From NCBI GenBank assembly GCA_019058515.1, contig JAHPYY010000088.1, positions 1 through 18,535 on the forward strand: DNA of 18,535 nucleotides, read 5' to 3'. The notes under the pieces are model-generated. The model searched no databases, had not been told where the DNA came from, and saw only the letters and a program-made list of their open reading frames with translations. The number at the start of each line of letters is the position of its first letter. The stretch's first letter is position 1. Below, piece after piece: positions 2,606 through 18,535 of this stretch. The translations under genes and the position numbers were made by a program. The stretch comes from Promethearchaeota archaeon. Lineage in GTDB: Archaea; Asgardarchaeota; Lokiarchaeia; Sigynarchaeales; SOKP01.

Positions 2606-2911
2606 ATGGGAAAAACATTGACATCGAGATTACCAGATGAAATGATTGAGGAAATCGAAAAAATTGCCGAGTATGAGAAATTAGACAAGTCGAGCGTCGT
2701 TAGAAGACTACTAAATAAAGCTATACCACTCTGGAAGCTAGAAATAGCGCTAAAGTTATATCAAGATGGTGAAGTTTCCCTTGGACGAGCTTCTGAGTTT
2801 AGCGGATTATCAATCTGGGAATTCTTAGATCACTTAGCTTTAAAAAAAATTCCTTTAAACTATTCACTTGAAGATTTAAAAAATGATTTAAAAACTGTGG
2901 ATGAGTTATGA
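2606..2911 (+). CDS. UPF0175-type antitoxin with N-terminal ribbon-helix-helix
   Basis: This 101-residue protein has two parts. Residues 1-45 match a ribbon-helix-helix DNA-binding domain: strand KTLTSRLPDEM, helix IEEIEKIAEYEKLDKSS, helix VVRRLLNKAI. Residues ~46-101 carry the UPF0175 core ALKLYQDGEVSLGRASEFSG followed by LSIWEFLDHLALKKIPLNYS and a DLKNDLK tail. UPF0175 proteins are predicted antitoxins that pair with DUF3368 PIN proteins, and exactly such a gene follows with an ATGA overlap (2908-2911), implying translational coupling. A weak GAGAG element precedes the ATG. The palindrome at 2558-2584 is the likely site of autoregulation. Full length for the family and apparently intact. 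Confidence 0.85.
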   Translation: MGKTLTSRLPDEMIEEIEKIAEYEKLDKSSVVRRLLNKAIPLWKLEIALKLYQDGEVSLGRASEFSGLSIWEFLDHLALKKIPLNYSLEDLKNDLKTVDEL

Positions 2912-3408
2912 AAGAAATAAGGGTAATTTCAGATAGCTCTCCCATTATAGCGCTTATAAAAAAGGAGGAACTATCACTTCTAAAGAAATTATTTAATAAT
3001 GTCATAATTCCAAAAGGTGTTTATGAGGAGCTTACTGACAGTCTAGAATATCAAGAGGAACAGAGAAAAATATTTAAAAACGAATTCGAATTAGGTTGGA
3101 TAACCTTAAAAGAATTAAAAACCGTTAAGTATCTTGATTTGCCTCTTGGAAAAGGGGAATCTGAAGCTATAAATACTTGTTTCGAATTTGAAAATGTTCT
3201 CTTATTGATGGATGAAAAGAAAGGTAGGAATATAGCGAAATCGCTACAAATTAAAGTTCTAGGAACTCTGGGAATCCTATCTTTAGCAAGAAAGAACAAT
3301 ATTAAAACTATTCAAGAAAGTGAAACGAATCTAGAAAAGCTAATTCAACAAGGATTCTATTTATCAAGTGATGTAATACTTGGTTTCTTAAAGAATTTAA
3401 GGTCTTAA
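2908..3408 (+). CDS. DUF3368 PIN-domain toxin (predicted ribonuclease)
   Basis: 166 residues with the order expected for a PIN-domain nuclease of the DUF3368 family: the N-terminal strand IRVISDSSPIIALIKK with first acidic residue D9, IIPKGVYEELTD with E40/E41, GKGESEAINT with E84, and VLLLMDEKKGRNIA with D102, followed by the family's LGTLGILSLARK segment. These acidic residues would coordinate the metal used for RNA cleavage. The start ATG overlaps the antitoxin stop (ATGA), so the pair forms a two-gene operon. All four expected acidic positions are present, so the toxin should be catalytically competent. The RNA target cannot be read from sequence. It converges on the AbrB gene, 46 bp between their stops. 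Confidence 0.85.
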   Translation: MKEIRVISDSSPIIALIKKEELSLLKKLFNNVIIPKGVYEELTDSLEYQEEQRKIFKNEFELGWITLKELKTVKYLDLPLGKGESEAINTCFEFENVLLLMDEKKGRNIAKSLQIKVLGTLGILSLARKNNIKTIQESETNLEKLIQQGFYLSSDVILGFLKNLRS

Positions 3409-16049: not shown

Positions 16050-16073
16050 ACATTCCTATTTTTTCGGGAATGT
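16050..16073 (-). terminator. Hairpin over the hydrolase stop codon
   Basis: On the minus strand ACATTCC (16073-16067) pairs with GGAATGT (16056-16050) around a 10-nt loop that contains the stop codon, followed by GATCTTTATT and T-rich sequence. It would stall or end transcription at the end of the hydrolase gene. The two genes here, propeller and hydrolase, converge. Confidence 0.35.
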
Positions 16074-16778
16074 CTCAGGAAGAACTACATCAATTAGAAC
16101 TGAGTTAAATTTTTCAGACTCCTCGAAAATTGGCGAATGACCGGAATTCTCGAACCAAACGAACTTCTTTTTAGGAGCTTTTATTTGGTTGAACAGTTTT
16201 TCCGCTAGTTCAAACGGCACCTGATAATCGTGTCTTCCTTGGCATATGTATATAGGCAGTTTTAATTCAGGGACTTCCTTGAATAAATCCACTCCCATAA
16301 GTTGTGTCAACATGGCTTTTGTTGAGAACATGCTACCTTTAAAGCACTTATAAAAATCTGGGGAACCCAACGCATATTTATACAGAGACATATAGCTTTT
16401 ATAGTTGTAGATGCTTCCCTTTAGTTTTACCAACCACTTTCTTTGAACTTTGAGTTTATCGAGGTCTTTCCCGTCGTACGGTTGAATTTCTTCTAGTAGT
16501 TTGATTGCTTTTTTATTGTTCGTTTCTTTAGCTCGATTATACATGTAATCGTAGGAAATTTGCTCGTTTTGAACCATGTTAGCTACTTGAACTGTGCCAA
16601 TATAGGCGTAGAGAAACTCTGGATGGCGTTGAGCAATGTAAGTCCCTAACACGCTACCCCAAGAATGCCCCATAAGATAAACATTCTCTTTTTCAAATCG
16701 AGTCAGTAACAATTTGACCAATTCGATACAATCGGAAATGTACTGTTCAGTGTTCAAAGAATCTGCTGCAATCTCCAC
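16056..16778 (-). CDS. Alpha/beta hydrolase lacking its N-terminal part (probable remnant)
   Basis: The family signature is clear: nucleophile elbow GHSWGS (Ser39), YICQGRHDYQVP with Asp184, and FENSGHSPIFEE with His214, so the triad is complete. It resembles proline-iminopeptidase-type hydrolases, which have about 330 residues. Here only 240 remain and everything before the elbow helix is missing, including the oxyanion HGGPG and the DQRGAGKS strand. The frame can be read a few codons upstream of GTG 16778 (KSVTYVEIAADSLNTEQ) to a TGA at 16794-16796, and then homology stops where the acyl-CoA dehydrogenase remnant begins on the other strand. Without the first beta strands it is unlikely to fold as an active enzyme. 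Head-to-head overlap with the next gene over 16714-16778. Confidence 0.75.
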   Translation of the reverse strand: MEIAADSLNTEQYISDCIELVKLLLTRFEKENVYLMGHSWGSVLGTYIAQRHPEFLYAYIGTVQVANMVQNEQISYDYMYNRAKETNNKKAIKLLEEIQPYDGKDLDKLKVQRKWLVKLKGSIYNYKSYMSLYKYALGSPDFYKCFKGSMFSTKAMLTQLMGVDLFKEVPELKLPIYICQGRHDYQVPFELAEKLFNQIKAPKKKFVWFENSGHSPIFEESEKFNSVLIDVVLPETFPKK

Positions 16779-17643
16779 GTATGTAACTGATTTTCAACAT
16801 GTAAAACAAAATTTTGTAGACGCCTATACTCACTTAGTCGCTATGAAGTTATTTGAATTAAGAACTGCCGATTATATGCGAGTAGCTTCTAAGAAAGATC
16901 GTCGCTATCTACTCTATGCCCCCACAATGAAAATGAAAACAACGACTCAAGGGGAGGAGGTTATAAATCTCTTGTGGGATTTGATTGCTGCAAAAGGGTT
17001 TGAAAAAGGCATGTATTTTGAGAACGCGGCTATAGATATTCGTGTTTTACCAAAACTCGAAGGGACGGTCCATGTGAACATTGCTTTAATTTTGAAGTTC
17101 ATGTTAAATTTCTTCATGAATCATAAGAACTACGAAATAGTGCATCGACAAGATCATATGAAAAACGATGATATTCTTTTTGATCAGGGGCCCACCCGGG
17201 GATTGGGACGAATTCGGCTTCACGATTGGAAACCTGCATTCGAAAAATATGATTTGCCTAATGTCAAGATATTCTTGGAGCAAATTAACTTTTTTAACCT
17301 TCTTGGAATAAAAGCAACTCCAAGCGTCGAACAACAAAAAGATATGGATTTTATGCTTTCTGGAATAGGCGAAATCTTTGCTTTGATTGTCTATGCTCAT
17401 CTTATTATTGAAAACGCTCCAATCTACAACATTGATGATGATACTGTGGATCAAATTTTCGATTTTCTGGTTAGAGATTTCTCAAAATACGCGTTGAACC
17501 TTTATCACAAATCTAGCACTACTCCTGAGCAAATGGAATGGTGTTTAAAGATGATTAAAAAACCCAAAGTTGATCACGATAGATTCAATAAGGTCTGGAA
17601 CATTGTACACAAACTTAAAGATGCCTATCAAATGAACGATTAA
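16714..17643 (+). CDS. Acyl-CoA dehydrogenase C-terminal part (N-terminal domains missing)
   Basis: From about residue 24 the protein reads as the C-terminal helical region of an acyl-CoA dehydrogenase: QNFVDAYTHLVAMKLFELRT, DRRYLLYAPTMKMKTTTQGE, INLLWDLIAAKGFEKGMYFE, IRVLPKLEGTVHVNIALILK. The order helix-bundle, GFE, then R...P.LEGT-H.N matches the FAD/acyl-CoA site helices of that superfamily. The ~300-residue N-terminal and middle domains that bind FAD and the acyl chain are absent. Residues 1-22 (MTNSIQSEMYCSVFKESAAI) are just the antisense of the hydrolase gene, so they are not family sequence. The listed start is TTG 16714; ATG 16738 is as good, and real homology begins near 16783. A remnant created by a rearrangement, or a chimeric contig, is most likely. 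Confidence 0.7.
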   Translation: MTNSIQSEMYCSVFKESAAISTYVTDFQHVKQNFVDAYTHLVAMKLFELRTADYMRVASKKDRRYLLYAPTMKMKTTTQGEEVINLLWDLIAAKGFEKGMYFENAAIDIRVLPKLEGTVHVNIALILKFMLNFFMNHKNYEIVHRQDHMKNDDILFDQGPTRGLGRIRLHDWKPAFEKYDLPNVKIFLEQINFFNLLGIKATPSVEQQKDMDFMLSGIGEIFALIVYAHLIIENAPIYNIDDDTVDQIFDFLVRDFSKYALNLYHKSSTTPEQMEWCLKMIKKPKVDHDRFNKVWNIVHKLKDAYQMND

Positions 17644-18151
17644 AATAGCTTATACTTTTTTCATTTATAGTTTTGCCTATACTTTGATCGATCTCAATAT
17701 ATATTCTCAGATCAGATTATCAACTTCTGACATTTCTATCAAAAAGTTTTTTGAAATAACGGACACTCGGACAGCCCATAAATCGCTTTTAACGCGAATT
17801 GTACCTTCTCTTTAAGAGAAACGCTCATGAAGTGTTATACGCGGCGAAATTATATAAATGAAAATCCGATTAGGCGCCAAAGTCTTTGAAAAAATGATAA
17901 AAAGCTATAATGGTAGTATGAAATGTAAAAGACCTTTAGAGCTTTTAAATTATTTAATTTCATGTGAAATTTGGTAGGTTTTGCATTTTTTGGTTAAAAT
18001 TTAGTGGTAGGTTATCATTCTCTTCAATAATCTTAATAATTTGTCCTAAATTAAGTATGATGATCAATAAGGTTGGTATTTTCTTGGTACTTAAAATAAA
18101 AAAAAATGTGATTATCATTGGAGCATTAGGTTACGACTGGAGGTGTTTAAC
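17644..18151. other. Intergenic gap; one possible tiny gene
   Basis: No clear gene. A T-rich run at about 17657-17664 may terminate the upstream gene. TTCTCTT and AAGAGAA (17806-17820) form a 15-bp odd palindrome. ATG 17858 opens a 39-codon frame (MKIRLGAKVFEKMIKSYNGS...) ending at TAG 17975-17977. A GTG at 17964 opens a hydrophobic frame to TGA 18153-18155 that overlaps the next gene's ATG as ATGA, but its composition (FCIFWLKFS, SIILIICPK, NVIIIGALG) looks like chance in AT-rich sequence. No tRNA found. Confidence 0.25.
18090..18145 (+). promoter_or_regulatory. Promoter and strong ribosome binding site of the FAD oxidase gene
   Basis: A TATA-like TACTTAAAATAAAA lies near 18090-18102, which puts transcription start at about 18125. 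GGAGGTG (18139-18145) follows, six bases before ATG 18152. This is the strongest Shine-Dalgarno in the window and fixes the start. Confidence 0.5.
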
Positions 18152-18535
18152 ATGAGCGAAGAAAAACTAGCAATGCATAAAAGAAAAGTAGAAGCGATCT
18201 CTGAAATGGTTAGAAATGCGTACGATAACGCGAAGCCGGGGGAATATTTCTCTCTAAAAAAAGCGAACGTTTCCCACATGGCTCCACAGCCGGATAATCC
18301 GAGATATAGTGACAAGCCGATAGATGTGAAGTCGCTTACAGACATTATTGAGATAAACACGGATACAAGGACATGTATTGCAGAAGCAGGGGTTACTTTT
18401 TTTAGGCTTGCAAGAGAAACCTTAAAGTATGGGCTCGTACCGCAATGTGTTTCCGAGCTCAAGGGAATCACGATAGGCGGGGCAGTAGCAGGATGTTCAG
18501 TTGAATCCATGTCTTTCAAGTATGGGGGATTTTTC
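18152..18535 (+). CDS. FAD-linked oxidase/dehydrogenase, N-terminal part (3' end outside window)
   Basis: 128 codons are open to the window end. After a helical start (HKRKVEAISEMVRNAYDNAK), the sequence shows the first half of a PCMH-type FAD-binding domain: SLKKANVSHMAPQPDNPRY, VKSLTDIIEINTDTRTCIAE, AGVTFFRLARETLKYGLVPQ and the glycine-rich GITIGGAVAGCSVESMSFKY, which contacts the FAD pyrophosphate. The pattern resembles DHCR24-like and other FAD-linked oxidases that reduce C=C bonds or oxidise alcohols. The His of a covalent FAD link is not seen in the part visible (a His occurs in VSHMAPQ). Start ATG 18152 is set by GGAGGTG six bases upstream. Substrate unknown. Confidence 0.85.
   Translation, partial: MSEEKLAMHKRKVEAISEMVRNAYDNAKPGEYFSLKKANVSHMAPQPDNPRYSDKPIDVKSLTDIIEINTDTRTCIAEAGVTFFRLARETLKYGLVPQCVSELKGITIGGAVAGCSVESMSFKYGGFF

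Follow-up and report, generated by a model that had tools for sequence, protein, structure and literature searches.

How did two genes of unrelated families, each without its 5' part, come to meet head to head at one point of a Lokiarchaeal contig? The window, by which we mean the whole 18,535-nt stretch analysed, carries the 3' part of an α/β hydrolase gene on its minus strand and the 3' half of an acyl-CoA dehydrogenase (ACAD) gene on its plus strand. An initial annotation had attributed both truncations to a single event, either an inversion or deletion breakpoint or a false join in the assembly.

Two truncated genes at a shared breakpoint

The minus-strand ORF (16056–16778) matched Pfam Hydrolase_4 (E = 1.1e-14), and its match to Abhydrolase_1 began at profile position 55. 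It contains the 3' part of a proline iminopeptidase-like (S33) α/β hydrolase gene at 16056–16772, of which 238 codons are kept and ≈ 97 N-terminal ones are lost. Like the α/β hydrolases of this type (PF12146, PF00561), the fragment has the C-terminal part and the aligned Ser (GHSWG), Asp (GRHD) and His (SGHSP) residues, which we take to be the catalytic triad. The HGGPG block, presumably the oxyanion loop, and the DQRGAGKS block are present in the alignment of full-length relatives and absent here, as are the first strands; the hydrolase thus has the full triad and lacks its N-terminal part, just as had been annotated. Relative to proline iminopeptidase-like hydrolases, the window copy is missing ≈ 97 N-terminal residues, HGGPG included, and in addition five conserved alignment columns. 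The fragment was 73% identical to P0122 and 54% identical to the G047 copy. It scored 45.9 bits against the proline iminopeptidase-family model TIGR01250, whose curated cut-off is 167.65. The closest full-length database homologues (P0123–P0131) have 91 to 97 residues ahead of the first shared column, and all seven genome matches with E < 1e-30 had open frames of 341–402 aa.

The plus-strand fragment (16779–17643) comprises the last 287 codons and the stop codon of a gene for a 579-aa dehydrogenase. Its ORF matched Acyl-CoA_dh_1 (E = 4e-8) over profile positions 41–149 of 150, so that the C-terminal helical domain (PF00441) is present in part. Compared with the long archaeal and bacterial ACADs (PF02770 plus PF00441), the C-terminal half was 80–88% identical in 25 Lokiarchaeal relatives and 89% identical in the best database protein; residues 1–292, including the middle domain, are absent. 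In the full-length relative at locus L002, the Acyl-CoA_dh_1 domain starts at residue 251 of 579, which places the break at residue 292/293 inside this domain. The ORF extends upstream to a TTG at 16714, and this extension (16714–16778) is merely the antisense of the hydrolase; the first 22 codons had been recognized as such from the start. The database call for this frame, the 301-aa protein P0001, corresponds to a start at 16738. Solved-structure matches returned general acyl-CoA dehydrogenases for the one fragment and proline iminopeptidases or other α/β hydrolases for the other, and nothing informative on the break.

Alignment to full-length homologues, which had been suggested as a way of placing the breakpoint, located it sharply. 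Of 31 relative loci, 26 showed dehydrogenase DNA similarity that began precisely at 16779; the remaining five comprise a Chloroflexi locus (L025, from 16819), three loci cut by contig ends (L026, L028 and L031) and L030, which is described below. Hydrolase DNA similarity extended to 16772 in L051, and similarity to full-length hydrolases stopped at ≈ 16770–16772. This leaves six nucleotides (16773–16778) without a clear match to either family. One shared breakpoint between two 5'-truncated, head-to-head genes was therefore upheld. Its position had been given as 16779–16800; the dehydrogenase does begin at 16779, but the break itself lies slightly to the left of that range, at ≈ 16773–16778.

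Were the short forms found in relatives? Among the 25 near relatives of the dehydrogenase (at least 80% identity, matched over fragment residues 1–286 or 1–287), 24 had open frames of 581–605 aa; the 25th (G045, locus L018; 345 aa) begins at base 2 of its own contig. Other short forms were cut by a contig end (G056) or begin at a contig start (G130), and in G087 the match spans residues 1–578 despite an open frame of 327 aa. None of the relatives had the same short form. The E-values and the 24 relatives that are full length across the break point exclude a chance resemblance. We also considered a separate conserved C-terminal gene, as 24 of at most 102 other listed relatives start at the conserved Met 292. 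This candidate was rejected: starts also peak at Met 151 (13), 113 (8) and 178 (6), which suggests that gene callers, given a cut gene, place the start at a conserved Met codon inside it. Eight plasmid records matched the dehydrogenase, none of them reaching 60% identity.

The identity of the dehydrogenase fragment to its relatives marks the window DNA as Lokiarchaeal, and sequence matches place both sides of the junction in this group: the gene leaving the right end is 96% identical to the G002 copy, and stretches on the left side have DNA matches of up to 83% in the same genome set. GC content shows no step at the junction; the right side is merely 1.8 kb long. In the protein database, both fragments were placed on two contigs, the longest of 336,363 bases; these may be a single contig deposited twice, or two assemblies.

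Constraint and age of the fragments

For the dehydrogenase fragment, pairwise dN/dS was 0.035–0.059 where dS was below 2; many other dS values were saturated. Its terminal branch had a dN of 0.039 and a dS of ≈ 1.1 (ratio 0.035); the ratios of the relatives scatter widely, and dN was above that of the window's branch in 3 of 25 relatives. Long freedom from constraint would bring dN near dS, so that, by this estimate, the unconstrained share of the branch is no more than a few per cent. The fragment deviated at three of the 169 sites that are invariant in the 25 Lokiarchaeal relatives, which themselves had 0–4 deviations; in the comparison with database proteins it was tied fourth to seventh of 60. 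Judged from these substitutions, the dehydrogenase appears to be without long-term decay, and the join would then be either recent or false.

Relative-rate counts were also obtained. The hydrolase fragment had 26 unique replacements versus 12 in P0122 (outgroup P0123; χ2 = 5.16). Across seven outgroups, the counts were 19–26 versus 11–16, and two of the seven tests, which are not mutually independent, exceeded a χ2 of 3.84. For the dehydrogenase, compared with seven relatives, mean replacements were 13.4–16.6 versus 6.8–11.6 with Lokiarchaeal outgroups and 9.2–12.4 versus 3.8–9.1 with bacterial ones. The hydrolase is also missing five consecutive alignment columns that are filled in all 119 homologues, the largest such loss among the 120 sequences (the next is four). 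At near-invariant sites it deviated at 2 of 34 when compared with its 38 nearest homologues, seven of which show three or four deviations, and at 2 of 26 when compared with all 119, the joint highest figure of the 39 sequences counted. The rate counts of both fragments lean to a mild acceleration and, taken with the five-column loss, would fit a young truncation, the statistics being weak and not independent.

Origin of the junction

The two truncations meet at one point, and no long sequence is shared across it: the longest exact run common to the 100-nt flanks was 7 nt, direct or inverted. Repeats around the junction were short and imperfect, and none of those shown spans 16773–16779. The window contains no N, and the exact junction was found in none of the viral contigs searched. 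With so little shared sequence, neither homologous recombination nor a k-mer misjoin is likely. Unrelated truncated genes joined without homology are what one expects of a rearrangement scar with paired pseudogenes, and equally of a chimeric contig; nothing was found that marks this junction out from known cases of these kinds.

The explanation we prefer, at close to an even chance, is a real, recent, non-homologous rearrangement in a Lokiarchaeal lineage that joined the interiors of the hydrolase and dehydrogenase genes. An inversion or translocation, its ends joined with little or no microhomology, would have severed both 5' parts and their promoters in a single event; the leftover 3' parts would be young pseudogenes that retain open frames. 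The 7-nt limit on shared runs and the lack of N mean that no k-mer overlap explains the join. The mild acceleration of both fragments and the five lost hydrolase residues, which would be unexpected for intact genes, favour a real event. The abrupt change of similarity at one point, the listing of both fragments on two contigs and the Lokiarchaeal origin of both sides also speak for it. The apparently undecayed state of the dehydrogenase and the ordinary appearance of the hydrolase at near-invariant sites would count against it. When the missing N-terminal half of the dehydrogenase was searched for, none of the 120 matches listed had a longest contig of 336,363 bases (best 8000 candidates scored), a weak negative result.

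A false join, which we rate as almost equally probable, would mean that pieces of two intact Lokiarchaeal genes, perhaps of two strains, were fused during metagenome assembly by a chimeric read or a wrong path. Clear decay was indeed seen in neither fragment. Moreover, among 23 loci no other 45-nt stretch of the dehydrogenase is as conserved as the one that holds the break (from codon 290, identity 0.904 versus a mean of 0.819). Exact shared runs of at least 27 nt (419, in 242 pairs below 90% identity) started most often in codons 286–290, the top five-codon bin with 28. Among truncated Loki-like database proteins, 7 of 17 start at residues 292–314, the window's own having been dropped. We infer that sites such as this conserved block are break-prone in assemblies of mixed Lokiarchaeal communities. 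The gene at the right end of the window (18143 onward) also counts in favour of a false join: its DNA is 91–97% identical at 12 fetched Lokiarchaeal loci, and of 13 further close matches covering only part of its first 105 residues, nine reach the first four bases of their contig. Had the assembly taken a wrong path at this block, however, the dehydrogenase would be expected to resume from about codons 286–290 and not from 292/293, a gap of only 2–6 codons. As the window retains none of the conserved block upstream of codon 292, a simple wrong path is disfavoured, and with at most 7 nt shared between the flanks a chimeric read would be needed.

One other locus bears on this question. In L030, a 4,462-base contig of G062, the first 409 positions hold residues 502–579 of the dehydrogenase preceded by 175 nt of AT-rich, unrelated sequence. 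Of the loci looked at, this was the only one with unrelated DNA ahead of a dehydrogenase fragment. In G056, the contig breaks off at residue 501, so that a contig end in one assembly and a hybrid in another fall at the same place. The L030 hybrid leans toward an assembly fault, but this single example, cut at a different residue, left our estimate unchanged. Of the seven truncated database proteins that start at residues 292–314, two are NCBI partial proteins from Promethearchaeota (P0003 and P0004) that share a start at residue 296 of the dehydrogenase, some three codons away from the junction. We consider it very improbable that recombination recurs at the conserved block (about codons 288–305) in Lokiarchaeia and that several of the truncated database copies starting there are, like the one in the window, real hybrids and not contig ends.

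For a head-to-head pair, the simplest geometry would be a deletion between divergently transcribed neighbours that removed the 5' parts of both genes along with the promoter region. This variant of the single event first proposed found no support, and we regard it as very unlikely. None of the 31 dehydrogenase loci gave a hydrolase match (tblastn, E 1e-3 and again at 1e-4), so the head-to-head pair is not conserved among them. G001, G019 and G047 carry both genes on different contigs, and their dehydrogenase loci are without the hydrolase; the locus of a fourth genome with both genes, G106, was left out of the neighbour comparison. When the 16 window ORFs were compared with the 31 loci by tblastn, the only match besides the dehydrogenase was a weak one of the β-propeller protein. 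As the two genes were never seen as neighbours, a simple deletion is unsupported. Gene order around the dehydrogenase is fluid: in 24 loci, with up to four genes considered on either side, matching neighbours formed groups of five genes at most. Finally, that the two truncated products function as proteins from newly acquired starts is barely credible: both frames are open and the dehydrogenase dN/dS is low, but the hydrolase has lost HGGPG and its early strands, the dehydrogenase residues 1–292 with the middle domain, and the start regions of the two frames are mutually antisense.

If the preferred rearrangement is real, it adds another recent gene-breaking event to a lineage whose gene order around the dehydrogenase is already fluid. 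A false join would make this contig a chimera at 16.77 kb, and any gene content inferred from it would need checking. The finding is ordinary in kind and minor in either case, and neither outcome alters any wider question.

Other features of the window

A Rad51-like frame enters from the left end (1–510), with a weak Pfam match just under the cut-off; bases 194–509 were 83% identical to G019. At 2606–3408, UPF0175 and DUF3368 genes overlap by 4 nt, a pair that resembles a toxin–antitoxin system.

The gene at 18143–18535 encodes a FAD_binding_4 plus DUF2229 protein and is evenly conserved over 1.8 kb in 10 loci (0.90–0.98 per 60-nt bin; loci from L072–L083). The bases upstream of it end in AATCCCAACCCT in 7 of the 10 loci compared (12 fetched) and in a near variant in the other three. 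This sequence is often part of a longer shared leader, and the surroundings otherwise mostly differ. In the window, the sequence ahead of the gene (18060–18142) differs from this type of leader up to 18142. Over the first 393 nt of the gene, G002 differs from G059 and G061 by 3–4%; the dehydrogenase DNA of the same genomes differs by ≈ 20–21%. This suggests a recent transfer or sweep of the FAD_binding_4 plus DUF2229 gene.
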